Source: Triplophysa rosa (lineage: Eukaryota > Chordata > Actinopteri > Cypriniformes > Nemacheilidae). From it: DNA of 64,000 nucleotides. The notes beneath the pieces were generated by a model, which had not been told where the DNA came from, searched no databases, and saw only the letters and a program-made list of their open reading frames with translations. This document shows positions 6,247-64,000 of this stretch, in pieces (position 1 is the first letter of the stretch; each line of letters begins with the position of its first letter). The DNA is taken from positions 24,918,597 to 24,982,596 of the forward strand of contig NC_079895.1 in NCBI RefSeq assembly GCF_024868665.1. The letters run 5' to 3'. A program made the translations under genes and the position numbers.

Positions 6247-6512
6247 NNNNNNNNNNNNNNNNNNNNNNNNNNNNNNNNNNNNNNNNNNNNNNNNNNNNNN
6301 NNNNNNNNNNNNNNNNNNNNNNNNNNNNNNNNNNNNNNNNNNNNNNNNNNNNNNNNNNNNNNNNNNNNNNNNNNNNNNNNNNNNNNNNNNNNNNNNNNNN
6401 NNNNNNNNNNNNTTCTATATCTCTCTCATCCTCTCTCTCTCTCTCTCTCTCTCCCTCTCTCTCTCTCTCTCCCTCTCCCTCTCCCTCTCTCTCCCTCTCT
6501 CTCTCTCTCTCG
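6181..6512. repeat. CT microsatellite interrupted by an assembly gap
   Basis: CTCTCT runs flank 166 N at 6247-6412. The gap almost certainly reflects unresolved microsatellite length. Apparent protein frames through it on both strands are artefacts of Leu-Ser or Arg-Glu repeats. Confidence 0.95.
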
Positions 6513-10184: not shown

Positions 10185-13100
10185 GTGAAACAGAACTCGC
10201 TCAGATCCTACATTGGCGTAGTTCCTCAGGACACCGTCCTTTTCAATGACAACATCCGTGAAAACATTCGTTATGGACGCATATCTGCAAGCGACCAGGA
10301 AGTAGAAGAGGCCGCAGTGGCTGCTGACATCCATGATAGGATATTGTCCCTTCCAGACGGTAGGAGAGTGTTGATGTATTATACCTCCTTAGAATTTTGT
10401 TGTGTATCAGATGTGTATGCATATTCCAATACTAATACAAGTACGGCATCATACCTAATAGAGTTGTCACGGTACCATAAACATATCTTACAGTACTTTA
10501 CCAGTTGAAGTATCGCGGTACCAAGTAGTAACACGGTGCTGTGCCCATGTTCACAGTTGAGATCTACAAAATAAACATAATCTCCTAAATACACAGATCT
10601 AAATGGAACATTTTGTATTTACAATAATAAACTGTATTATACTGAAAACTACAATGTTTTGTAGTATAAAGTAATTAAATAAATTGTAGTAAATACTGCA
10701 GTATGCTTTAATATTTACTATGGTAAGAATTAAAAACACTAGTGTCTAGGAATTTTGTAGTACTGTACTATATAACTATGTACTATATAAATACTGTAGT
10801 AAATACTAAAGTACACCAGAATGTTTTTCACGTCGGAACTAATAAAATGTGCGACAAACTTCATTTATACAGATATTTTTATGAAGAGAAATGTTAGGCT
10901 TTAAATCATTTAAATGTGAAACTAAACAGTAGGTGGTGGCAATTTTTTACTGAGTCAGTGAATCATTCAACCAGTTCGTTCAAAACGATGGAGAACGAAG
11001 CAAGTGTCCTGATGAACGACTCACTGAATCATTATCTCATTCGAGTCATTCAAAACACAGATTTATTTAGAAGAGAAACACTGCCAAAAGGCAGATGTAA
11101 TTGTTCAAATAAACATTAATGCGCATATTCAACATTACTTCCGGTACTGCGATACTACCGTTTAAAAAAATAGAGTGGCTTCGCAGTATTTTGAAGCTGA
11201 GTTAATAGATATGATTTTAACAAGAATTTAAAACTAGAAATAGATGGAGCTAATCTAATGTTCCCCGGTAGCAGGTTCCGCAGTTTTGGAGTCGCAACCG
11301 AAAATGCGCGATCGCCCTTCAGTTTTAATCTAGATCTGGGAACTGGTAGTAGTAACTTATCAGAAGAACTCAAAGACCTTGCTGTTGTATGAAGTTTCAC
11401 TAGCGCATCAAGATACTTTGGTGCCCGACCGTTTAAGGATTTAAAAACAAACAGTAAAAGTTTGTATTCTTTACGGAAGCGAACTGGCAACCATTGAAGA
11501 GAGGACAGAATCGGTGTGATGTGCTCATGCTTGTGTGTACCTGTTAGCAGCCTAGCCGCTGCATTCTGCACGGCCTGTAAATGCACCAAGGCTGTCTAGC
11601 TAACTCCTATATACAGAGTATTACAGTAATCGAGTCGCGAAAAATAAAAGCATGAATAAGTTTCTCAAGGTCATTTAAAGAAAGAAAAGTCTTTGCTTTA
11701 GCCAAGAGTCTCAGATTAAAGAAAGCAAGATTTAACAACATTATTTATTTATCAAATTTAAGATCTGTATCGAATAATACGCCTAAATTCTTCACAACCA
11801 CTTTATTGTACACAGCCAGGGGGCCCAGATTTTGAGAGGCCAGATTATCCATTTGTCCAAATTAACTTCTGTTTTATTATCATTTAATTTCAGAAAATGT
11901 AAAGCCATCCAGCTTCTTATGTCCTTTAGGCAGTCTAACAGTGGAGTTAAAGCGTTCTTGTCACACTTTTGAAAAGGCAGATAAATCTGCATGTCATCGG
12001 CCTAGCAATGAAAAGAAACGTCATGTTTCCTAAAGATCGATCCTAATTGAAGCATATATAATGGAAAAAAAGGGGAGCAAGAATGGACCCTTGAGGAACA
12101 CCACAAGTAAGTGGTGCCGAACTCGAAAGGCAGTCACCAAGTTTAACTGCAAAACTTCTGTTCATTAAATATGACTTAAACCACTGAAGGGCCAACCCTC
12201 GAACTCCAACATGGTGATTCAATCGAGAGATCAGAATGCCATGATCTACGGTGTCAAAATCTGCACTATGATCTAGTAACACTAAGATAGCAGAGGCAAA
12301 TAACTTTCTTTGAATTTAACAGAACAAAGAAATTTATACAGGTTTGGAACAACTGGAAGTTGAGTCATTTATGACAAAATTTTTATTTTTGGGTTAACTA
12401 TCCCTTTAGCTTACAATATTTGTTCCAGCAGATACCTGACAAATGATATTTTAAGCATATTTCATTTCTTTTTGGCAAGTTTTAAAATATTTACTCATTT
12501 GATAATTTTTGTTAAAAAAGAAATGTATTTTGTTATATCGGCTTTTCCATAATATAACAAATATGGCAATGGTTTTAAATAGATCAAAAATCAGATAAAC
12601 ATCGACAGTCGATACATTGGTACATCTCAAGTATCAGGTAGACTTATTTATTAAAGGGATAGTTCATCTAAAATTAAACATTTTGTCATCCTTTAATCAC
12701 CCCAAGTCGTTCCACACCTGTGTAACATTTTTAGAACGTTTGTAAGCGAACAGTTGTGGGGCACTATTGACTACGACAAGTGGGAAAAAACTACTGTAGT
12801 AGTCAATGGTGCCCCAGAAATGTTTAGTTTCCCATGTTCTTTTATGTTAACCAGAACAAAGAAATGCATACAAGTTTGGAACAACTTGAGGGTAAGTAAA
12901 TGATTACAACATTTTTACTTTTGGGTGAACTATCCCTTTAAGTAGTATCTCACAACAGAAAAATGTTCATACTTTAAAAAGAAGCAAGAAACAAGAAATA
13001 ATATTCATTCATCTAGGCCTACCTTTTGCTTTACAATAAACTATTGTATGTCAGTCTTTGCTAAATAGTTAATCCAGATATAATAGATCAATAAGTCACC

Positions 13101-16100: not shown

Positions 16101-19100
16101 TGGACACTTTTATTTTGTTGTGGTGAGCTACCCATATGGTGAGACTGCTAGGAGGTCTGCGTGAACTGACTGTGCAGCCACTAAAAATGACCTTGACACC
16201 AGTTGGTTAAAGGGATAGCTCACCCAAAAAATCTCAATTTTGTCATCATTTATTCACCTTCATAAACTTGTACATGACTCTTTTTTTTCCTGTGGAACAC
16301 AAAAGAAGATATTTTGAGAAATGTCTCCGTGGTTTTGTGTCCATATAATGAAAGTCAATAGGGGCCGATGTGGTTTGGTTACCAACATTCTTCAAAATAA
16401 CTTCTTTTGTGTTCTGCAGAAGAAAGACAGTCAGAATTTTCATTTTGGGGTGAACCATTTCTTTTAAAGTATTTATAAAAATGGCTGCCATTCTGAAACC
16501 TCCGTATTTCTTGATTTTTATTTATTTACCATATGTCACTATTATTAGTCACCCTTTATGTTTGTCACTGGGTTTTGCAAATAAATATCCAATAAAAAGC
16601 ATTTAAAGTGCTTGTCAACTTTGACACAACAACATTTAATCATCCTGAAACACAGCGAATTTGGACATGCGAGGTTTCGGAAGGACAGCAACAGTGTATT
16701 TCCAACATGGCAACAATACAGTTTATTATCTGCAAAAAAACACTTTAAATGTTCAAATGTCTTCTGGGGCGACCGCATTTGTTTGTGTTTTCAGATTGTC
16801 CACAATCATCAGCTCCGACCAGATCCTCGTTCTTCACGACGGCAGGATTGCAGAACAAGGCAGGTCAGTAGTGTGAATGCTTAAACTCTAGTGTATATAA
16901 AAACAAATGACACACCCTTATGATCTTTTCCTCCTCTATTCGGTCGGATCACCCCCCATGTCACACCCTCTATCCTAATTGACTGAAATTCCTTTGGTCA
17001 TCGGATAGTGAACCATAATACGACATGTTGGGGCAGACCGGGTCTTCTTCATCTTCTCAGGAAACATAAGTGTGTGTGTGTGCGTGTCCCAGAGGTGCTC
17101 CTGTTATCAGCAGATCTGTAGTCTTAACCCGAGGGCTGTCTGAGTGCATCTTCATTTTCCCAGAGACAGGATATAGTCTCTCAGTGTACGAGCCGTCCAC
17201 GCCCTGCCTGATCTCTGTGTCGTGTCTCGCTGCTGGCCCTCAGGTGGTACACACAGTTCCCCCTTTAAACCCAACACACACACGCAGTGTCCCGCTAATG
17301 GACTTCTCTATTCATCCTGACCGCTCAGCCTCGGCGTTAACCCCGTGCTCACTGTCCGTCTCTTTCGCCCTTTGATATATGAGCTACGGCCAACAGAGCA
17401 TCCGCTACACACACTTAGACACACAGCCATCAGGGGTGTAACTCCACACCTCGCACATTCAACCCTGACTGACACTGCGATGTAAACACAACCCACGCAG
17501 GGCTTTAACAGCATATCGGAATACACATGTACACAGGAAGAGATGAGGTGGGAACGGGCATTCGGGGAGATGAGGGGTTAATGCTTTTACAATAGAGGAA
17601 TTAAGAGATACACCTTGTGCACTCGGCAGCCCGGAAAGATGCTTCCTAAAATAAGACGTCTGAGGAATGTCTGGAAAACAGGTTACACAGAAAATGGAGG
17701 ATTAGTGCGGGATGTTTTATTAATTTATACAGGAAGTCTATGCCTTTTAAAGTTGAGACTTTTGTTGGATAAGGTTTGGAGAATGCTTCCCAAGCTCCTT
17801 CGCTGCTATCCAAGTTCAACGGATGGTTGACTACACAGTAAATTTGCCTGAGTAAAATTTACTCAAATTGAAGAAAATTTTACTCTATGCCAGATAACAT
17901 TTGGTCCCTCTCTAAAAAGAGTAAAAGATACTCTTTTGATAGAGTCGTTTTTCCAGAGTGAATTATGCTCAATATAGTGTTAATATTTTACTCTGTCCTG
18001 TAATATTTTACTCTATTTAGTGTTTTATAAAATTAACTCTCGTTCAATTTTACTCAATTCAGAGCTACAAGAAATTAACTCTGCTGCTTTTTAACTCAGT
18101 TCAGAGGAGCTTTAAATTTACTCTGCTACAGTTGACTTCCCCTCCAGAGTTGTTTATCATCAATTATGAGTGAACTATAAAGAATAACTAACTCTATCCA
18201 GAGTTATTTTTATGAATTACACTATTCGTGTTTTACACTTAAAAAGTCCTAAAATGAAAACCTTGCTTTCAGTCTGAAAATAAAATCAAAAACCAACTGT
18301 ATACTCATGACACAATTTTATTTTTTAAGCTCGTCTTTCAAACAATTTTACACTTAATTCACTGAGAAAAGAAATACGAATTATGAGAACAATAATATAA
18401 CAGATGAGACAAAGAAGAATTACATGAAACAATATGGCACAATAAACAAATCAGAATCACAGCCATAAGACATCAGAATGTCAAACAACTTGTGGTACAA
18501 AATATCCTTAACCTCCAAAACATAAGGTGCTGATATGTTATGTGCAACTTTGTAAGCATGGACATGTTCTGCTAAACATAACGTTTTCAGTGCATTTGTT
18601 ATTAAAAGGATGTGCTCATCTTTGACAACAACATTCTGGATTACATGAAATACAGGCATGTCATTTTGAACTTGAACACAAACCGCTAACCCTGAACGAT
18701 AAGTATTTCCACAGTGCTTGGCCCATTTTACATTCAGGACCTTAGTCCACATAGGCAAGATAAGTTTCTCAGCCATCTGACCACAAACTTCCATTTCATT
18801 CAAGGGGACCATTTTCCCAGGACCTAATTTCATGTCATTTGGATCAAATGTTTGCCAAATATAAGCCATTTGGCACTGGTGTTTCTTTGCCAGTGTTTTC
18901 GTTATGTTTTTAAAACTTTTCACCTGCTTTTTAAAAACATTATGCTTCGCTTCGTAACGCATACACCAACAATGCAGCAGTGGTCCAATTTTTTTCATAC
19001 AACTGGGGTAATGCACCATAAAATGATGCTTTGGCAACAAGTTTTTATCAGGAAACAAATGCTTAAACAAACTGTGGTGCTCTGCAATCAGGTGTTTTAA

Positions 19101-22100
19101 ATAAACAGTAATACCAGTGGATATAACGAGAGAAAACACTATGTTGACAATCTGAAGCAATAAGATGAACAAATACCAGTGCTGATCATTAGGACACACA
19201 AGATCTCCAAACATGATGGGCAGATAACGTAGTAAACACCAGCTCTGAGTGGCATTTAAGCCCAAGTCATTGGAACCCTCTCTCAATTGTACACCAGGAG
19301 GTTTGTTGCTTTGTTCCATGAAGCCATAGTTGAAACTCTGAATTCTTCTGTTTACTTCTGCTGATGTGGTGTAATTGTTAATCAGGTGCTGAAGGAGTAA
19401 TTTCATCTCATATTGTGCAACCCCTTCTAATATATCGTGCATAACATCAACCGTAAAATTTGCAGTGGTGTGGAAATATTGCAACGAATTTAAAAGGCAA
19501 GACTTTTTTACTCCCATTACATAAGGTAGACTGGGATTGCTCTCCATTCTCTGGCAGTGTTCAGCATGAAGTTCTTTAGTTCGCACTGACATCTTTGGAC
19601 TATCTTCACTGAACACTGTCTGAAAGTCTTCTTTCTCTAGTAGGCAAAAGCGACAACAGTACCTAGCACTAAATGATTCCACAAAACCAAATAAGGAATG
19701 GACACCAAGGTTGTCACCAGTAACTTGGACAATGGTTCCATAAACTGTATGATCATATAAAGGAATCTGAATTCCATTGGTTTCCAGTGTTGAGATATCA
19801 TGGACAAGCGGCTGTAGTATTTTATCAAACCCATAGGTTTTAATATCTTGTGCATGAAATAAAGAGACTAAGTGGATATTTAGTAAACTCGAGTTGTATT
19901 TAGGGGAAATATTTCGAAGGGTAAAATAAATAGCTCCTAACTTATGTATTCCACGTTTTGATCCGAGGGGGTTTGAGCATTCAAATTCATCAAAAAAAAG
20001 CTGGATCTGAACTGCATGTCTTTGTTTCGAGAAGAGCGCATGATTCTTAAAGAATTCTCCATAGTGTATGTCATAAAGACAATTTGGACTTTGCTGTGAA
20101 TCTCTCACCATCATATCTTTAATGTTAGGGTGCCTATAAATGGACTGTAATGTGTCAAGGATTGGTATATATACAAATTTATCCTTAACAATAGTTTGGG
20201 CAAAAGTTTCAGTTGTTCTGTTACGCCGTGTAGCAAATCTTGTTCCGAGAACATATTCAACAGGATCTATTTTCCCCCATTTTTCTGAGAAGTGCTGCAT
20301 TCTCTTTCTCTCAGTGTTTAATGCCACAAAAGGATTTTGCATTTTTTCAAAACACTGATCAATTTGAGACTCAACAACACTTTTTATGGGCTCCTCTAAA
20401 GATAGGCTGTTTTTCAAAGATTCTTGAGTTTCACTTTGGATGTCTCCAATCACTTCTTCTAGAGCACTAACAACATAGTTAATAGTTGCCTCTGCAACAC
20501 CAGCAACTTTAAGTTCAGCTACCACTGTGGCACAACTGTTTACTATATTTGTTTTTGGGTGTACAGACTCACAAGGTGCATTTTGGTGTGGTAAAACATC
20601 TACATTGCCTAAGGAAAAGGAGTTGGCAGAGGGTGAGCTTCCACCAGAATCGAGCCGTGAACTGTCAATTGCAGAACATTTGCTGAGATGCTTTCGTAAT
20701 CCAGAAAAACTATGGTAAACATGTAAACAACCTCTTTGAGCACATTTTAACTTTCAACTTTTCCCTGGACAAAGGCCGTGAACTAATTTAAAGTGCCTTA
20801 TAAGGGCATTGACATTAGCATGCCTCCTTTTACAAATGAAACAAATCATCTGCTCACTGGAGCATTCTAGCTCTCAACTCAGCCACTCTGGGATTCACCT
20901 TTGTGGTTTCAACATCTATGTCGTAGATAGTGGTTTGCAGAAAGGTATACACATTGGTCAATTCCTGACAGTATGATGTGCCAAAGACAAAGTGAGATTT
21001 AAAAAGCTCATCAACACAGGCCAGTGAATTAGAGGCCTTACAGGGTAGAGCATGTTTGTCAATTACAATAAACCAAGACTGGACCCTACTTCTGTTCGGC
21101 CCAACAGCAAGTAGATACGGCTGAAGACTCTCTCCAATGCTATCCAAGTGCCCTTGGATACTGGTACCGGTCTGTGAAAGAATAAAAACATATTAGTGTC
21201 AATTTGACTTAACAGTTTAAGTCAATATACAACATGAATAAAATAACAGTGAAGTCTTCAACTTTATACTGTATGTGCTAAGTAGAAAAGAATAGCATAA
21301 AAACAACCATTTGAAGGACAGGTGATCTTTAATAACCTGTCTGAGAAACAAGCAAGTTTAAGGTCACACAGAAACAGAACATTATGAACTAGTGTCATTT
21401 TATCTGCTTTATCAGTAGCTTTACCTTGATGAATTTCACAAGACGATCACATGCTTGTCTAGCGGAGATCTTTCCAGGTCTTTTGCGGCCTTGACTTGAG
21501 GGGGGCAAAAGGTGAACCAGCATTAGAATCGAAGACATGTCGCTGTCCCAACCTGGAAACACAAAAAACAAAAACAATTTGTTTTAGGCTTTTAGGTTTG
21601 GTTTTTAGGGGGGGGGGGGGGTTGAAGACACCCTCCTATTTTAACTTGACATAACTTCACTTAGAAGATATGCAGATATAATACATTAACCACTCACGCA
21701 AACAGATTCAGTATTAACAGCACATTCATGGCCAAGTCTTGATGAGTACAGATGTGTGGATGAATTAAAATCTCTACAGATGTTGAAATGAGGTCATACA
21801 ATTAAACTTTATTAAGTGTTTTTGTTATTCAGAGTCCCAAATGAAAACAATTTCAAACTGCAAATCTGCGACTCCTGTACTAGGCCCTTGCAAAAAGATC
21901 AGGGCAGAAATGTTAAAGAAACAGGTGATTTTCATTCCGACGGTTTACACATTGAAAGTCTGTGTTGCATATGAATCTAATGAATAAAGTTGTGACCACA
22001 ATTGGAAGCTGTAGATCTGAATGAAGCTACATTTGTCATGAATGCACAACTTCCTCTTAAAGGTCCAGTCAGTGAAATCTAGCGGCAACCGCTTACTCCA

Positions 22101-25100
22101 TCCCTCCCCCTCCCGTTCGAAACACTACGACGGCTGACAGAACATGTCGAATTACACGCAAGGGGACCTGCGGTGTATGTAGATAGAAATAGCTCATTCT
22201 AAGGTAATAAAAACATAACGCTTAATTGTGTAAGCTCTTTATACACCTCTGAAGGCATAGTCATGTATATTATATTATACTGCATTTCTATCAATAGATC
22301 ATCCCAAAAATGACACACTGGACCTTTAAATAATTTAAGGTATAACACAATAGTTACCTTCTTCAACTTGAGTAGCTTCAGCATTTTGGATGAGGTCTTG
22401 GAGCTCACTAGTCTGTGTGAGGCCACGGCTCTGTGCAATAACCTTTGGTTTTAAGTTGGTGGACCACTTCTCCAACAATTTTGCAGAGGTCGCATCACCA
22501 AAAAGAAGTCCAAAATCTTGATCAATCTGCCAAAGATAATTAAAGTAGGCACCACAGTATAGTATAGTATAGTAACTTCATATGAACTTGGTTTACCTAA
22601 CAAGTCTGTGTTATTACAGAACAACAATAGCACTTGATTTCATATTTGTATGTTTTCATGTGAAAGAATTGAAGTCTCACATACCAAGCCTGGAATATCC
22701 AGGAATCGTGGGAAAATTGATAGAATATCAGTGGATTCTTTAGGGTTGTGCAGCAGCTTCTGACGATAGGCCAGTGTTAACCTCATCTTTTCCTTTACCG
22801 CTCCCTCGTCAGCTGTATGCTTCATCAGGGCAATTGCTTCCTGACACTGACGTTCGTCATTCAACCAGCTGTCTTCTTTGTAGGGATGCCTGTCACCAGT
22901 TGGCCCACCTGAAAGTATTTGAGACAATATGAAGTTCCTTTTCTTTCCAAAGCAAATCGCGTTCATACCAAAACTAGATACATGACAGGAAATAACATGG
23001 AAAACATAGTGACATTTAAATTTGCCAAATGTTATGATTACGCAAAACATGTTTACATTTAAAAAGAACGGTGATTAAAGCACTGACTAAACATCAAATC
23101 TTGCACCTGTTTGTGGTTACCGTGGCCGTTTCATCCGTCCCTCTGGTGCTTCTTTCTGCAGAGTTTTGATTCTCCACGCTAAATATCCACTTCCATCTTC
23201 TGCATTGTAATAATGCTCCTATGACCAGAACAATACACAGACCTTTTAGTAGTTATACATTATCCGACTAAAGAAATTAATGGTATATCAATTATAATGT
23301 AGACAATCTTTAATATACATAGTGTATCCTCCTCATGTAAATCAAAAAGACTGAGAGGCAACAGCTACTTACATAACCAAGCTTGCTTCTGGGGTCAGCT
23401 AAGTTTGAGAATAGGTAGACGATTCCCTTTGCATATTCTTCCTTCAAACGTCGGGAAGGGCTTGTTCTACACACACAAACATAACCCAATTACAACCCAT
23501 AAAATCATAAATACCAATTTACAATGTACTGTATGAACAACCTACCCATACTTATTGGTCAAATGTGCTACCAAGATTTTCACCATGTCACGTCTTCGGC
23601 CATCTGACAGACTTTTAGTGCGAGCATATTCATTGATGACCTTCTCGCCTCCAGGGCTGCTCTTTAGGATATCTTCGATCATCTGGATGGGGGATGATGT
23701 AATATTGAGCAGAGATGTAAAACAACTGACAAGGGTATATAGTTCCAAATACCTTTAATATTTAAGTCATTCTAGATTCAAAGTCAAGATTGGTGATCCT
23801 TACTTGGGCAAGATTACATTCCTCATCTTGACATTTTTCAGGAGGACTTTGAATCAATATTGCTGTGTCATCAGACTCTGACGTGCCCTCGTTATCACCT
23901 AATGAGCTTGAGCTTAAAGAATCTTCAACATAAATTATAGCAATGGTCTGATTATCTGTCCATACTATGACAGCATGCTTTACAACTATTGAGAATATCT
24001 AATAGCCTATGCAAATCAGTGAATTGATGAATAATGTTGAGAATAAACACGAAACATGATAAGTATGTCAAAGAATTTACCATCAACACTTGCTGTGCCT
24101 GGGATGATAATTTCTAGGACACCAAGGTTTGGTTGTGTCAGCAGATATTCGAATGCTTCCTCATCAACCTCTGTCTTGGAGTCATCAAAGACCTTAACAT
24201 TTATTGTAGGAAGATCAAATTTCTTGGCAACTGAGGAAAGACAAACCATTGGCAAATCAGCAATGTCAAAGAAACTAAAACTTATATTTATACACCCATA
24301 AGATACAATCATACACTTTTTATATTACTGTTAAACTACTTTTTAGAGGGTAAAGTATTAATGATATTAACAATATTAAAGTTATCTTACCGCATTCCAA
24401 AAACGTTTGAAATGTAAAAGGTTGCGACGAAAAAATGAATTTCTTGCTATCTCTGAACTTCACTCTGACAAAGTTGTTGGTTTGCATCCTGAAGGAACCA
24501 AAACACCAAGTTGAACATAAAGAAATAACACTCACAGTCATGAAGAATAAAACACATTAAAAATATGTTTTTAATTTGTAATAACTGTACAATAGTTCTG
24601 TTAAAGCATGCAGTGGTTCTATTCAGACAGTAATTGATTCTCACGTGGACATCTGTAAGAACAAATCTGCATGGCACCTCAGTGATAAAACTAAAGTTAA
24701 TGCATTCAGATAATAAAAGTGTACATATCAAAAATGCATGCAACTGACAGTAAAGCGCAACGTTTAGCGGTGTCAAAACAGATTCAAACAGTGAATTTTG
24801 AATTGACACACCAACATTCTGCATTCAGACGATTATAAAATCACCAACTAGCCCGTGTAAATGTGGAATTACACCTTACAATTACCAACCGAATAAACTC
24901 ATACATATCAAAATGGCCTCCAGCAATCCAATGAAGGCTAACTCTTTACCGAGTCAAGTACACGTGGTGCACAGCTCGAGCTGCTCCTCACACTAGTTAA
25001 ACATTTAATAGGTAACGTTAGCTGTATTACTGGTGTCAATTAATGTTCATAATCTATAAGTTTGCTATTTACTTTCAAAACAGTTCAGTCTAACTTCTGT

Positions 25101-28100
25101 TCTAACCCCACAAGTAGCAGCAGTGATTGATGGCCGTGACTAATAGAAAAGGCTGCTAAAATACTTTACGAAAATAAGTTACCTTACAATTACCGTCCGA
25201 ATAGGATAAAGCACATCATAATGGTCTCTAGCATTCCAATGAAGGCTAACGTTAACTTAACTCTTTGCAGAGTCAAGTGCATGTGGTGCACAGCTGAAGC
25301 TGCTCCTCACGTTAATTTAGTGGAAAACATTTAAAAGCTAGTTAGCTAACGTTAGTTTTACTGGCGTCAATTGACATTCGTAATATGTTGGCTATTTGCT
25401 TTTAAAATAGCGGATCCTAACCTAATTTTCAAGTTAATATGAGAAAGAGATCTCTGTAAAATTTAAAAAACGCGGCAAAATGATGCGAGCTTTAAAAATG
25501 TACTTACTTTAACATCCAGCAGAAGCACACATTTGGTTTTAAACCCACAAGCAGCAGCAGAGATCGATGGCCGTGACTAACAGTAAAGGATGCTAAAATA
25601 CATAAGGAAAATAACGTTACAATAGCTGAATAGGAATAATACACATCAAAATGGCCTCCAGCAATCCAATGAAGGCTAACGTTAACTTAACTCTTTACCG
25701 AGTCAAATAACGTTACATGTGGTGCACAGCTGCTCCTCTTAATAGTTTAACGTTAGTCGAAAACATTTAAAAGCTAGCTAGCTAGTTTTTTAACGTTCGT
25801 AATATTTCAGCTATTTGCTTTCAAAATAGCATAGTCTAACTTAACAGTTAACGTAAGTTCTCAAGTTAATATAGCGATCTCTGTACTAGTATTAAAAAAC
25901 GCGGCAAAATGATATGAGCTCAAAACAGAGGCATATAATATGAAAATGAATACAGAATTTAAAACTTTACTTACTTTAACATCCACCAGAAGCGCATATT
26001 CTCTTCAAATCCCACAAGCAGCAGCAACAGCGGTCGATGGCAGTTACTAACGGTGTGCTGATAAACGAAACCTTGCAAGGGCGAAGCAACGTTTTGGGGG
26101 AGGAGTCACAGTTAGGCTGCTCTGCAGCGAGTACCACTTGGTAATTTTGCTCCCACTCTTCTGACACGTTTTTCACTTTGCACTCAAAATAGAGCAAAAA
26201 TTACTATTTTGGAGGGTACAGTTCCAACCTTATACGAATTCAACCTGATTTTGGCACGATTTGTGTCATAGGTGTCAGGACGCACTTGATCATTTCCAGT
26301 AAAGATGCTTGTTTGGGTTTTTTGTCTCCTGCATGACAGTTCTTTAACATCTACATTGTTAACCAATAGGAGCTCAGATGTTCATGGCAAAACAAAGGAG
26401 AAACAATGGTATTTGTTGTGCTATTGGTGGAATTGTGCAATAGGGGAAAAGTTTGTGGAACTATGGCAACAGTACAACAATATTTACGATTATTCCTTGA
26501 GAACAACCACAGCAAATTATGAAAAGAGAAATGCTGGTGAACGATAGATGGAGGCACTTCAGCAGCACAGTAAATACTAGAATTAGCATTAAGCTAGTTA
26601 AGCTTAAATGAAGAGTTTATTATTTCCAAAATGAGATCAAATTTTTCAAAATTCATGTTTTTGTATTGTGCATTCCAATTAATATCAATCAAACTGCAGT
26701 TGGTTTGTTTTGATTTAGACCATAATAACCCAAAAATACCGCTAACTAACACAATAAAGACATGATAACATAATAAAAAACTATTTTTTAAAAAACGGAG
26801 TCTTCAAATTTTGATGATACTAAAATACAGTAAGTACAAAACACGCCGCTTCCGTTGCCGCTGTTTTACGCTCTTGTTTGAAGAAGTGACTCGCTAGTTC
26901 CGCCTTCTCGATGGCGTCACACACATTTAAAAAGAACAACTAATACTCATTGGGAAGCATCACGTTCCTCGCTCTATATTACTTGTGGGATTATTTGTTT
27001 CTGGCATTTTTTCAACTTGCGCGGAAGACTCGGTTGAAGCCAATATTGCACGTTTGCGGCAGTCGCATCGCCCCGCACAATTTTGCGTATGTCTTTGCTT
27101 TGACTTTGTATGTAATTTACTCGCGCAAATAGTTCAGTTTGCTTTTGTTGTGTACACTCCATAACAGACAAAAAATGTTTTAATCAAAAATGGGCTTTAG
27201 ACAACTAGTTCTGTGGGACTTTCGATGAATTCTTCAGTTGAGTAAACAGTTCAGAGCACTATTTCTGTGTTGCCTCCTTTTTAGTGCTCCAAAAATGAGG
27301 ATGCTGCCTATGTAGGCAACAAGACAGCTCACTATACTTCAGAGCAGGGGCCAGTTGCATAAACATAGCCGCTAAGTTAAGACTGCCGCTGCGTCTGAAA
27401 TCGCCTACTTCCATACTATTCAGTAGGCAAACATGAGTATGAGTCATGAATAGTATGTCCGAAACCTCAGTATGCAAAAACAGTAGGCGAGAAATACCCG
27501 GATGGTCTACTACTTCCGCCGAGATTGGTGAGTGTGGATCGGATGGACACTTCTCTATCCCATGATGACAGGGGAGCTGAGCAACGGTCAAATTTTTAAA
27601 AGTAAATCAAATAAATATAGCGGAAAACTTTAAGGCGGACGTCCGTTTTTAACGTAAGTGCCAATAAATGAATTTCTCGTGACTAAATTATGTTTTTATC
27701 AACGCTCACGTATAGGTTGTTGTCAATTCGTCATAGGTCAAAGAGCATACGGGTCACATGACCATAAAACATGGTACTTACACAAATTCAGTACGTACTG
27801 TTACAGTATGCGATTTCGGACGCAGCATGTGTCTTAATGACTAGCAATTAGTTAGGAGGACTAATCAGTTTTACTTTTCAGATTTCAATTAGACCAATCG
27901 TCCTTTCTGTGGAACTGACTTAAAGAAGTTATGACCAGTCTGATGACTAGTAAGACTAGTCTAAGCAGTTTATGCCACCAGCCCCATAACTTATTTTTTA
28001 AATGATTTTTGGTGTGATATAAGTGTTCTGTGCTCCCAGAGCTCTTTGTCCCACATGGTGTATGCCTCACGTTTGATGTCATACTTCTAAGTAATTGATG

Positions 28101-28685
28101 CCTCAGCAAACTTGACATTAGACCGACCCGCCCAACTCTCAGTTTTAGCAATCTGAAAGAAAGCAAAGGGAGATGGTCCTGAGAGTTTCCTTGCCCTCAA
28201 GTGATTTCTGGAGCCGGAGGCAGGTGTTCAGTGGGTTTCTTTGACCCCTGTGAGGTTGAACTGCTCTAAAGTCTCTTGAAGGCAAGTCTACTTAGTAAAG
28301 CCAAAAATATCTGACATGACGTTATGATAACATTTAAAGTCACCAATACAATTTTGACAAAATTTTATCATCATGCAAGTTACGTTTTTGACTGAAATCT
28401 GCATTTCCTACTGTTAGTCAGTTCAGATAATATGCGTTCAAGAACAATGTTTCTTTTACTGAAAAGGCAAGACTTTCTTTTCCACAGCCCCGTATTGAGT
28501 GTAACAATGTCTCCCATGTATTTTTCGACAAGCGGACCCTTAATTTCATGTTTTCTGTGTGTTCTAGGCACGAGGAGCTGCTGGCCATGGGATGCCTGTA
28601 CTCAGCCATGTGGTTAAAACAGCAGCAAAGCCCCGAGTGTGAGGTCTCAGAAGAGTTAGGCCTGGAGACACAGGGGAGTAGCTGA
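10185..28685 (+). CDS. abcb6: ATP-binding cassette transporter B6, last five exons (5' part outside window)
   Basis: ABCB6 is a half-transporter with a transmembrane region and one ATPase domain, linked to porphyrin transport in mitochondrial, endolysosomal and plasma membranes. Exons: 10185-10359, 13625-13737, 13820-13914, 16795-16863, 28568-28685. All have AG/GT borders and join in phase to 189 residues plus TGA. Visible motifs, in order, are the Q-loop ([12 protein letters not shown]), the ABC signature ([13 protein letters not shown]), Walker B (IILLDE), the D-loop (ATSALD) and the H-loop (VVAHRLST). The C-terminus runs [17 protein letters not shown], then a short variable tail. Walker A and the transmembrane segments must lie upstream of position 1 or be missed. 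The last intron is 11.7 kb and contains a whole minus-strand transposon-derived gene pair. The family call is made from remembered ABCB6 sequence (the DTVLFND and NIRYGR phrases); other ABCB half-transporters are less similar. Confidence 0.93.
11155..12290 (-). mobile_element. 5'-truncated, inactive LINE reverse transcriptase
   Basis: Reading right to left on the minus strand, the fragments are typical of fish LINE polymerases. 12282-12043 has [18 protein letters not shown] and [16 protein letters not shown]. 11992-11792 has [10 protein letters not shown] and [16 protein letters not shown]. 11589-11155 has [25 protein letters not shown] and [12 protein letters not shown]. The pieces lie in different frames. 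In the catalytic box, which should read Tyr-Ala-Asp-Asp, the Tyr codon is TAG (complement of 12002-12004). The endonuclease half is absent. The clade is probably L2/CR1-like, by resemblance only. The copy cannot encode an active enzyme. Confidence 0.88.
12300..12409. repeat. 3' fragment of TTAA MITE family abutting the LINE
   Basis: ACAGAACAAAGAAATTTATA, CAGGTTTGGAACAACTGG and GGGTTAACTATCCCT match the right half of the family. It begins where the LINE similarity ends. Confidence 0.6.
12655..12937. mobile_element. TTAA-flanked MITE, complete copy
   Basis: Flanked by TTAA at 12651-12654 and 12938-12941. The ends are AGGGATAGTTCATCTAAAAT and TTTTGGGTGAACTATCCCT. The inner palindrome has CTACTGTAGTAGTC near its centre. 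It is 283 bp and non-coding. Confidence 0.8.
13915..16206 (+). other. abcb6 intron, unannotated part
   Basis: I see no exon, RNA gene or clear element here. A 63-codon frame at 14635-14826 has no recognisable motif and lies wholly in the intron. The sequence is AT-rich with several CAAACTGG repeats around 14450-14520. Confidence 0.5.
16211..16463. mobile_element. TTAA-flanked MITE, complete copy
   Basis: TTAA at 16207-16210 and 16464-16467. The ends are AGGGATAGCTCACCCAAAAA and TTTTGGGGTGAACCATTTCT. The interior has AACACAAAAGAAGATATTTT and its inverted partner TTCAAAATAACTTCTTTTGT, with GAAAGTCAATAGG near the centre. Confidence 0.8.
17832..18240. repeat. Cluster of ACTC/GAGT subterminal motifs, probable transposon end
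   Basis: The segment opens with CACAGTAAATTTGCCTGAG and is then crowded with short ACTCT, ACTCA and AGAGT motifs in both orientations (for example TTTTACTC several times and CAGAGTT several times). It ends just before the transposase-like frame on the minus strand. CACTA-type elements typically carry such arrays beside termini beginning CAC. The matching opposite end may lie near 26150-26215, where TTGCACTCAAAATAGAGC and AAATTACTATTTTGGAGG occur, but I could not fix it to the base. Confidence 0.5.
18420..20849 (-). CDS. C2H2 plus TNP2-like DDE transposase-derived protein, one in-frame stop
   Basis: An open frame of 701 codons runs from ATG 20525 to 18420. The same frame continues upstream to an ATG at 20849, broken only by one TGA (complement of 20754-20756). 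The upstream part has two Cys/His fingers: [19 protein letters not shown] with a following H, then LKCAQRGC with [10 protein letters not shown]. Downstream, [29 protein letters not shown], a CRFCLLE zinc pair, [17 protein letters not shown] and [13 protein letters not shown] with MRYEAKHN follow the order of the TNP2/DUF4218 type of CACTA transposases. The candidate acidic residues are Asp in FFDEFE, Asp in TGDN and Glu in YEAKH; these assignments are my inference. It is intronless, antisense to abcb6 and lies inside its last intron. It sits 4 nt after the stop of the SAMD3-like gene, as in a two-gene transposon. It could be active, domesticated or decaying; the intact 701 codons argue against great age. 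Confidence 0.75.
20854..24488 (-). CDS. SAMD3-like protein of a fish mobile-element family, ten exons
   Basis: Exons on the minus strand: 24488-24391 (ATG 24487), 24230-24081, 23922-23804, 23682-23546, 23466-23373, 23218-23121, 22908-22685, 22526-22358, 21552-21425, 21171-20854. They give about 511 residues. The C-terminal parts ([66 protein letters not shown]) match proteins labelled sterile alpha motif domain-containing 3-like, which are abundant in fish; this is from memory. No SAM domain is visible. The N-terminus ([19 protein letters not shown]) resembles a ubiquitin/PB1-like start. All joins keep phase except 23121 to 22908, where the exon ends in phase 2 but the next needs phase 1, so one base is gained or lost, or the border is misread. 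The function is unknown; its pairing with the transposase frame suggests an accessory transposon protein. Confidence 0.7.
22061..22325. mobile_element. TTAA-flanked MITE with AGGTCCAGT ends
   Basis: TTAA at 22057-22060 and 22326-22329 bracket AGGTCCAGTCAGTGAAATCT at the left and CACACTGGACCT at the right. It lies in an intron of the SAMD3-like gene. A second copy in opposite orientation is at 61453-62554 and shares GCAAGGGGACC(T/C)GCGGTGTATGTAG. Confidence 0.8.
24900..26035. repeat. Tandemly duplicated 5' region of the SAMD3-like gene
   Basis: Three copies of a block anchored by CCAATGAAGGCTAAC occur near 24930, 25240 and 25665, each followed by GAGTCAA and GTGGTGCACAGCT. Two copies of AAAAACGCGGCAAAATGATG/ATATGAGCT occur near 25467 and 25895, and two of ACTTACTTTAACATCCA near 25503 and 25967. 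The spacing is uneven at about 310 and 425 bp. Read on the minus strand, the latter is GGATGTTAAAGTAAGT, a good splice donor, preceded by CTGCTGCTGCTTGTGGG. So a non-coding first exon and probably its promoter have been duplicated. Confidence 0.7.
27389..27825. mobile_element. Inverted-repeat DNA transposon, CTGCGTC family, copy A
   Basis: The left end is CTGCGTCTGAAATCGCCTAC and the right end AGTATGCGATTTCGGACGCAG reads as its complement. The interior CCCGGATGGTCTACTACTTC is the reverse complement of CGGGAGTAGTAGACCATCCG at 59284, so the copy at 58967-59405 is the same family in the opposite orientation. It appears inserted into an older repeat (TTAAGACTG to the left, TGTGTCTTAATGACTAGC to the right). 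No target duplication is clear. Confidence 0.7.
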
Positions 28686-62900: not shown

Positions 62901-63474
62901 AGGTTAAATGTCATTTTAACATACTGTAATTAACTTTAAGTAGGAGCTCTATGTGTTTCCTCCTTCAGAGGTCTATCTACAGTGTTCTCTCAAGTCTCTG
63001 GTCAGCATCACACCTGAATCCAGGTAAAGCCTGACCTCTGCAGAACTTTGTTTTTCTCTTGTTTCTCCAGTGACAGAGTTGTGTTTCCTGTTGTCAGCCT
63101 CTTTGAAGCCATTTATTCTTTACTGAAGCACAAGATTCATCGTCTGCCCGTCATAGATCCAGAATCGGGGAACGTCCTCCACATACTGACCCATAAACGC
63201 ATCCTCAAGTTCTTGCACATCTTTGTAAGAGCTTCTGTTATTCTCCAAAATGAGTTTCATGTTGACAGTGGCAATATCTCGACTAAATATATGTTTTGTA
63301 AATCACAGGGCTCCATGATCCCAAAGCCGCAGTTCTTACAGAAGCGGATTGAGGAAGTTGAAATCGGTACTTTCAAGAGTATCGCGACTGTCAGGGAGAC
63401 AGAAACTGTTTATGATGCTCTATCAATATTTGTAGAGCGACGGGTCTCCGCCCTGCCCGTTGTCAATGAGCAAG
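56958..63474 (+). CDS. prkag3: AMP-activated protein kinase gamma-3 subunit, 5' part (3' end outside window)
   Basis: The gamma subunit binds AMP/ADP/ATP through four CBS repeats and makes AMPK energy-sensitive; gamma-3 is the skeletal-muscle form. Exons: 56958-56975, 58262-58304, 59639-59751, 59873-59954, 60950-61008, 62837-62882, 62969-63023, 63098-63224, 63309-63474, all in phase, 236 codons so far. CBS1 is seen in [20 protein letters not shown] to [13 protein letters not shown] and CBS2 in [20 protein letters not shown] to [17 protein letters not shown]3 begins at [17 protein letters not shown] and [17 protein letters not shown] with LKFLHIFG points to gamma-3 rather than gamma-1 or -2. 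The gene starts about 900 bp after the ttll4 poly(A) signal, same strand; human PRKAG3 and TTLL4 are also close. The first two exons are the weakest calls, because the reading frame is open upstream of 56958. The usual final exons (rest of CBS3, CBS4) are missing only because the window ends. Confidence 0.92.
57749..57910. mobile_element. Short TTAA MITE, internally deleted
   Basis: TTAA at 57745-57748 and 57911-57914. The ends are AGAAATAGTCCATCCGAAAA and TTTTGGGGTGCACTGTCCCT. It is only 162 bp because the right arm is mostly deleted. Confidence 0.7.
58738..59442. mobile_element. TTAA MITE carrying a nested insertion
   Basis: TTAA at 58734-58737 and 59443-59446. The ends are AGGGACAGTAACCGCATAAA and TTCGGTAAACTGTCCCT. 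The inner arms AAAAGAAGATATTTTGAAGA and TTCTTCCAAATATCATTCTC are inverted. It is interrupted at 58967-59405. Confidence 0.75.
58967..59405. mobile_element. CTGCGTC-family element, copy B, nested
   Basis: The left end is CTGCATCCCAATTCGCCTAC. The right end GCTAATTGGGACGCAG is its complement. It matches copy A (27389-27825) in reverse orientation, including AGTAGACCATCCGG, and is of nearly equal length (439 versus 437 bp). Frames 58867-59277 cross it and are not genes. Confidence 0.7.
59605..59634. repeat. CT-rich microsatellite serving as polypyrimidine tract
   Basis: CTCTCTCTCTCT with CTGTCTCCCTC lies immediately before the acceptor AG at 59637-59638 of a prkag3 exon, so length variation could affect splicing. 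Confidence 0.6.
60206..60570. mobile_element. Truncated AGGGGTCATATG-family copy
   Basis: After TTAA (60202-60205) it reads AGGGGTCATATGGCGCAAAT and follows the copy at 44767 closely through GGCCAATCATAGCACAT, then diverges. The right terminus is absent. Confidence 0.75.
61120..61369. mobile_element. TTAA MITE in prkag3 intron
   Basis: TTAA at 61116-61119 and 61370-61373. The right end is GCGTGAACTATCACT. The left terminus is shortened (AGGATATACATCTCCTCATG). Inner arms include CAAATGAAGATATTTTGAAG and AGACATTTCTCAAACTTTTG. Confidence 0.7.
61453..62554. mobile_element. AGGTCCAG-family TTAA element, split by a hAT insertion
   Basis: TTAA at 61449-61452 and 62555-62558. AGGTCCAGCGTTTCC, TTAGAATGAGCTATTTCTAG and CCGCGGGTCCCCTTGCATG are the reverse of sequences in the copy at 22061-22325. 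GTCAGCCACCGTAGTG then breaks at the insertion and resumes with CTTTGAAAGGGAGGGG after it, matching GTCAGCCGTCGTAGTGTTTC and GAACGGGAGGGGG of the complement of the other copy. Confidence 0.8.
61750..62462. mobile_element. hAT-type element with perfect 8-bp target duplication
   Basis: CCGTAGTG is present at 61742-61749 and 62463-62470. The ends TAGCGGTCTGC and complement TAGAGGTCTGC are inverted; GCGGGAC follows both. It is 713 bp with no transposase frame. The uninterrupted state is visible in the sister copy at 22061-22325, confirming the insertion. Confidence 0.88.
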
Positions 63475-64000
63475 GTACGTAATACTGCGTATGGCTTTTT
63501 GCTTTTGTTTTCTTTTAGCCAAACATGCGTTTCTTTTTTTTCCCTCAGTCATTATAGATTTTTCTGCTTGGTAAGACCCTTATAAAATTGAACTTTTGAG
63601 GACTTCATGACTTTTAGCATTGAAATCTATATGCTTGTATACCCCTAAGAGTTAAAGGGAACCCCAGCGTATGAAGAAATATATGGCTTAATACGTTGTA
63701 ATAGCCTTACACTACTAGCATTTGTCATTAGAAACACATCAAATATTTTCATTTCTTTAAAAAAAAACTAAATGTAATACTCATTTTAACCTAAGGAGGC
63801 CGCCATGTTCTTTTTCGATGACGTAAAATGGTTGCACGCACAGGCAGCCAAACTGAACACAGACTCACTAATAAGTTCTTCAGTAAATATAAGGTGCTGT
63901 AGGATAAAAATATATATAAAAATAATGCTAAAGAAAATAAAGACGCTATTTGGTGTATTTTCATACATTTTAATATTGTTGGTCAGAAACAATACAAACA
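63475..64000 (+). other. prkag3 intron to window edge
   Basis: It begins with the GTACGT donor. No further exon is visible before the window ends. The opposite-strand 68-codon frame at 63786-63992 is AT-rich and without motifs. Confidence 0.6.

Follow-up and report, generated by a model that had tools for sequence, protein, structure and literature searches.

A stretch of 64,000 nucleotides of Triplophysa rosa (GCF_024868665.1, contig NC_079895.1, positions 24,918,597-24,982,596), hereafter the window, contains two adjacent genes, both antisense to an ABCB6-like gene and placed in its last intron. Very probably they represent a DNA transposon that carried two genes, belonged to the EnSpm/CACTA-Transib-RAG1 clade and has since decayed. 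The first of them, the PB1-like partner gene (gene 1), has ten coding exons on the minus strand, running from 24487 to 20854, with GT-AG introns, consistent phases and a terminal TGA at 20856-20854. The stop is followed by GCAG and then by an ATG at 20849, which begins the frame of gene 2, a transposase, extending to 18420. The exon model thus reproduced the arrangement read in the first-pass annotation of this DNA: ten exons, a stop, four nucleotides and an ATG. Judged from the sequence, both genes of the window copy are broken, each by one stop lesion.

A transposase with a RAG1-like core

Gene 2 had been described as a zinc-finger/TNP2-like frame, open for 701 codons from its ATG. The frame itself is real, with 777 uninterrupted codons (20753-18420) and 925 protein homologues (E up to 1e-3), but it is not open from the ATG, which is followed by only 31 codons before an in-frame TGA (20756-20754) between fingers 1 and 2. 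At the position of this TGA, all 29 aligned relatives have a residue and not a stop. The best homologue is 89% identical across the whole frame, and the names of the 120 homologues listed are those of fish, with clusters P0102 and P0104 also labelled ferret.

Motif and spacing assign the catalytic role to D255, D347 and E601 (19991-19989, 19715-19713 and 18953-18951, respectively). D347 and E601 are identical in 30 of 30 relatives and D255 in 29, the remaining one having a gap. Identity in 30 of 30 is also displayed by C367, C370, H576, H577 and H581. These residues lie between the second D and E and make up C(2)C and H(3-4)H, a feature of EnSpm/CACTA (CMC, CMCT clade) according to PMC12730594. 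The predicted fold of the core is of the RAG1/Transib type. Sequence identity to the listed mouse and zebrafish-type RAG1 chains is 12-15%, and a sequence search of PDB with the transposase gave no match at E up to 1. Residues 640-766 are a candidate BAH-like region.

PF02992 (Pfam) was detected in 13 of the 30 transposases, at best with E 6.5e-4 in a member scoring 19.4 bits against a cut-off of 28.6. The top PF02992 score seen was 25.7, in P0101, which bears a precomputed PF02992 annotation; DUF4218 reached 16 against a cut-off of 27. In the seven relatives with a placed PF02992 match, the first D is always covered and the second D in three, and the DUF4218 match covers the final E in both relatives that have it.

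A PB1-like partner gene

Relatives place the exon 6 donor of gene 1 at 23107, and for this reason the in-frame TAA at 23119-23117 is counted within the gene. This donor, with the in-frame stop, was preferred to a model in which the reading frame broke between exons 6 and 7. A CAG acceptor-like site lies immediately 5' of the ATG (24487), and therefore a 5' noncoding exon upstream is likely. Farther upstream there are two or three diverged direct copies, two of which terminate in the donor-like GTTAAA|GTAAGTA; these donor-like ends suggest that the copies may be repeated 5' noncoding exon/promoter units.

The protein has 364 homologues, the best of them 89% identical. Among the 120 listed, names are again those of fish (P0196 is also labelled ferret) and mostly read uncharacterized, hypothetical or unnamed, with a few unrelated ones; three relatives (P0130, P0151 and P0200) are called PB1 domain-containing. 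The SAMD3 label given to this gene by the first-pass annotation is not supported: none of 30 family members has a SAM domain at E up to 0.1 (Pfam) and none of the 120 listed names says SAMD3; the two halves of the window protein likewise gave no SAM match at E up to 1. For the part past approximately residue 90, the structure-search rows listed contain no clear fold match, a result that does not argue for a new fold. Some members of the family (P0146, P0242, P0154, P0161 and P0243) have a tandem duplication of part of the first half.

The two genes recur as a pair

The proposal that the two genes are recurrently adjacent in other copies was checked at the protein level, and it held: we found consecutive-tag pairs, fused proteins and matched divergence. 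Locus tags appear in the names of ten transposases and twenty PB1-like proteins among the matches listed, and the two lists share the genome prefixes SKAU, ACEWY4, N1851 and MHYP. For three of these four there is a consecutive-tag pair on a contig of the same size, whereas the fourth, Metynnis, offers none. More generally, seven pairs on identically sized contigs (one Coilia transposase being counted twice) occur among 117 x 116 typed entries, compared with 0.125 on average and never more than 2 when 120 small offsets were applied.

A search for long proteins containing a PB1-like part, in which the 7994 candidates sharing most words were scored, returned 15. Alignment hidden Markov models found the PB1-like part followed by the transposase in P0241 (Labeo) and P0246. 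The latter is one open reading frame (ORF) of 751 codons in a contig of 2,454 bases, with the PB1-like part at 1-558 and fingers plus transposase at 575-736. Since this ORF takes up most of the contig, introns of the window type would not fit in; the contig is probably a spliced transcript. A third protein, P0249 (Merluccius, 2055 amino acids), is a single gene model that combines a diverged transposase and a HARBI1-type transposase with two PB1-like parts, one matching weakly and standing between the two transposases, the other at the end. Its middle part, which we take to resemble fish SAMD3-like proteins, has a weak match to the PB1-like profile (E 2.4e-5, probability 75%).

Divergence of the paired proteins is also matched. 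Distances correlate between partners with r of 0.87, 0.86 and 0.85 for 6, 7 and 9 pairs, values reached in 6 of 720, 4 of 5040 and 1 of 20000 permutations, respectively. The Sarotherodon and Corythoichthys pairs, which share only a chromosome size, were used in the 9-pair set alone, and P0249 as well as the Coilia pair P0041/P0125 (same chromosome size, non-consecutive tags) were left out of all sets. The two window genes differ from their counterparts by 36/34% in Synaphobranchus, 48/48% in Coilia and 50/51% in Merluccius. Taken together, these sequence comparisons support the view that the two genes form a recurrent unit.

Element ends

A candidate terminus beginning with CAC lies downstream of the transposase frame. 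Thirty of its bases have a single occurrence in the window at up to 3 mismatches (0 of 100 shuffles), and EnSpm ends, too, begin with CAC according to PMC12730594. Within 17833..18120, GAGTAAA/TTTACTC occurs eight times, compared with a mean of 0.06 and a maximum of 2 for shuffled motifs of the same letters, and all five window occurrences of GAGTAAAAT fall in the same interval.

The upstream boundary at 26215 given in the first-pass annotation was not confirmed. When the region upstream was compared with the right-end sequence, no inverted match was significant: the best score, 35, was reached in 11 of 200 shuffles, and eight controls scored 27-38. The best upstream partner, at 27269 (minus strand), comes third among 2011 CAC sites if the terminus is included in the ranking, which does not exceed chance; among the top rows it is the only weak candidate with the right orientation near the unit. 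A search for a target-site duplication with prefixes of the flank TAGTC gave none above chance. Between 17500 and 28600, no arrays were detected by Tandem Repeats Finder. Viral contigs were searched for further DNA copies with the transposase and with the alignments of both families, and genome contigs with the transposase alignment; no relative was returned. Assignment to a CACTA-like superfamily, as originally put forward, is favored by the catalytic residues, motifs and predicted fold, but at the DNA level has one CAC-type terminus and no target-site duplication in its support.

Weighing the alternatives

Several observations weigh against a two-gene transposon. Matches to the TNP2 and DUF4218 profiles named in the first-pass annotation occur in relatives, but all these PF02992 and DUF4218 scan matches are under the Pfam cut-off and the window's own transposase protein gave none in Pfam scans. 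Foldseek with the partner protein model found no match at E up to 0.001. In lists capped at 120 entries each, the tags of one transposase and three PB1 proteins from Metynnis do not follow one another, and no neighbor is listed for Merluccius N1851_005164; 12 of the 15 long PB1-family proteins carry no transposase part. As many as 55 of 117 transposase contigs are shorter than 3.9 kb and could not accommodate the two genes in full, and 32 of 117 measure 2.7-3.3 kb, hardly exceeding the transposase ORF; such contigs could reflect a short transcript distinct from that of gene 1, a repeat boundary close to the ATG or simply fragmentary assembly. The distance correlation draws on few pairs, some of them partial, and the contig 3601 pair, present in all three sets, is joined through contig size alone. 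An anchored scan of CAC sites for the left end gave nothing above chance, and the ends, target-site duplication, copy number per genome and mobility all rest on a single DNA copy and are unproven.

Could two unrelated elements or genes simply have come to abut by chance, for example through insertion of a transposase beside a repeated PB1-like gene? Most listed proteins of each family show no sign of the other, and the Metynnis tags point the same way. However, chance would have to account for consecutive-tag pairs in three different fish, for the fused proteins and for the matched divergence, and we consider this explanation very unlikely. The fused proteins raise a different question, namely whether both frames belong to one gene for a single fused protein, in which the stop at 20856-20854 is a lesion. 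P0246 does run uninterrupted across both parts, and in the window the frames are just 4 nucleotides apart. On the other hand, all 30 aligned PB1-like proteins have a common ELRAR-type C-terminus, give or take a few residues, a methionine just ahead of the CxxC of the first finger starts 26 of the 29 aligned transposases, and the window ATG is not in the reading frame of the PB1-like gene, making a single fused gene highly improbable.

A host-domesticated gene pair under selection, as opposed to a mobile element, would agree with the conservation of the proteins across fish and with the extra N-terminal regions of the PB1-family members P0183, P0206 and P0208. It is at odds with the two stops in the window copy, its intronic location adjoining a CACTA-like terminus and the 925 members of the transposase family, so that we regard domestication of this pair as extremely improbable. 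A decayed two-gene transposon copy accordingly remains the explanation that we strongly favor.

Proposed mode of action

In such a transposon, gene 2 would supply the transposase whose RAG1-like DDE core performs cut and paste. The two C2H2 fingers may bind the termini or subterminal repeats, and the BAH-like C-terminal domain may contact chromatin. Gene 1 would encode a PB1-like accessory protein that may oligomerize, or help synapsis or escape from silencing. Both genes would share one promoter and one primary transcript, which fits the ORF fusion in P0246; the transposase would then be produced as a downstream ORF or via splicing to the CAG of the spacer just before its ATG, which could serve as a splice acceptor.

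Host locus and sequence features

The unit lies between plus-strand ABC-transporter exons at approximately 16793-16864 and 28569-28685. The placement in the last abcb6 intron thus stands as far as ABC-transporter exons flank the unit, but the gene name is only plausible and rests partly on reading by eye: joined host exon translations match ABCB-family chains, with top scores for two-domain ABCB transporters (8.4e-64) and an ABCB6 match at 1.1e-53 (residues 1-109). Feature coordinates are collected in Table 1.

Table 1. Features of the two-gene unit and its surroundings, in window coordinates
Feature	Position	Strand	Basis
Candidate element terminus, 5'-CACAGTAAATTTGCCTGAGTAAAATTTACTC..., TGACTA just before	17834..17878	+	unique in window; CAC start
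Subterminal repeat cluster, 8 GAGTAAA/TTTACTC copies	17833..18120		8 of the window's 22 copies
Transposase frame past premature stop, 777 codons: finger 2, RAG1-like DDE core, BAH-like C-terminus	18420..20753	-	ORF, homologues, fold
Transposase frame start: ATG, C2H2 finger 1, in-frame TGA 20756-20754	20754..20849	-	ORF and relatives
GCAG spacer between gene 1 stop and ATG	20850..20853	-	sequence reading
PB1-like gene last coding exon (10), stop 20856-20854	20854..21171	-	exon model
PB1-like gene exon 9	21425..21552	-	exon model
PB1-like gene exon 8	22358..22526	-	exon model
PB1-like gene exon 7	22685..22908	-	exon model
PB1-like gene exon 6, in-frame TAA 23119-23117	23107..23218	-	donor set by comparison with relatives
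PB1-like gene exon 5	23373..23466	-	exon model
PB1-like gene exon 4	23546..23682	-	exon model
PB1-like gene exon 3	23804..23922	-	exon model
PB1-like gene exon 2	24081..24230	-	exon model
PB1-like gene first coding exon, ATG at 24487	24391..24487	-	exon model
Diverged direct repeat 5' of PB1-like gene, two or three copies at spacings of ~310-470 bases	24873..26026	-	repeat families D1-D6 and others
Host context: last intron of ABCB6-like gene	16865..28568 (limits approximate)	+	flanking exon translations

Elsewhere in the window, VHPKMKI or a near-identical peptide occurs in six frames on both strands (520, 2612, 16452, 38359, 38778 and 57900); these frames are a dispersed repeat of no assigned kind. 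By eye, ORFs at 11155-12315 (minus strand) resemble reverse transcriptase fragments of long interspersed elements (LINE), and 63018-63482 (plus strand) resembles an AMPK gamma (CBS domain) exon. A run of N at 6247-6412 adjoins a simple repeat.

Significance and comparison with known systems

That this clade is akin to RAG1 and that its elements may have one or two ORFs is already known (PMC12730594 and PMC6431247). A literature search over listed titles and abstract beginnings found no PB1-like partner or BAH domain in a fish EnSpm element; Repbase Reports were outside this search, and an earlier description there is possible. If our interpretation is true, two large and mostly 'uncharacterized' fish protein families are the two halves of one mobile element, and some listing names are misleading (N-acetyldiaminopimelate deacetylase for P0241, alpha-tectorin for P0050). 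It would also be a second case, besides RAG1/RAG2, of a RAG1-fold enzyme tied to an accessory protein, a pairing that would open the function of the partner to experiment. A broader idea, which we offer tentatively and by analogy, is that fish may hold a long-lived two-component transposon system comparable to RAG1/RAG2. Its RAG1-fold transposase, equipped with a BAH chromatin reader, would be co-inherited with an obligatory PB1-type partner and share one transcript with it; many uncharacterized PB1-like fish genes might then be remnants or domesticated copies of the partner.

The window element resembles EnSpm/CACTA in its DDE core, its C(2)C and H(3-4)H motifs and its subterminal repeats; to these come one candidate CAC terminus and, in relatives, a remote similarity to PF02992/DUF4218 that stays under the cut-off. 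En/Spm elements usually have one or two ORFs (PMC6431247). In contrast to EnSpm/CACTA, the window element, known here by one terminus, has a PB1-like partner gene and a BAH-like C-terminus of the transposase. Fish SAMD3-like proteins differ from the partner family, which has no SAM domain in the members searched. In maize En/Spm, TnpA and TnpD provide an accessory protein and a transposase from one element; here, too, a transposase is paired with a putative accessory protein, but the gene arrangement differs. RAG1/RAG2, ProtoRAG and Transib share with the window element the RAG1-core fold, as predicted for the window transposase, and a second gene beside the transposase. The second D and E of RAG1 are D708 and E962, and their spacing of 254 is the same in the window transposase. 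Unlike in RAG1/RAG2, the recognizable domain of the partner is PB1-like, with no RAG2 kinship demonstrated, and the low identity to RAG1 chains likewise sets the transposase apart from RAG1.
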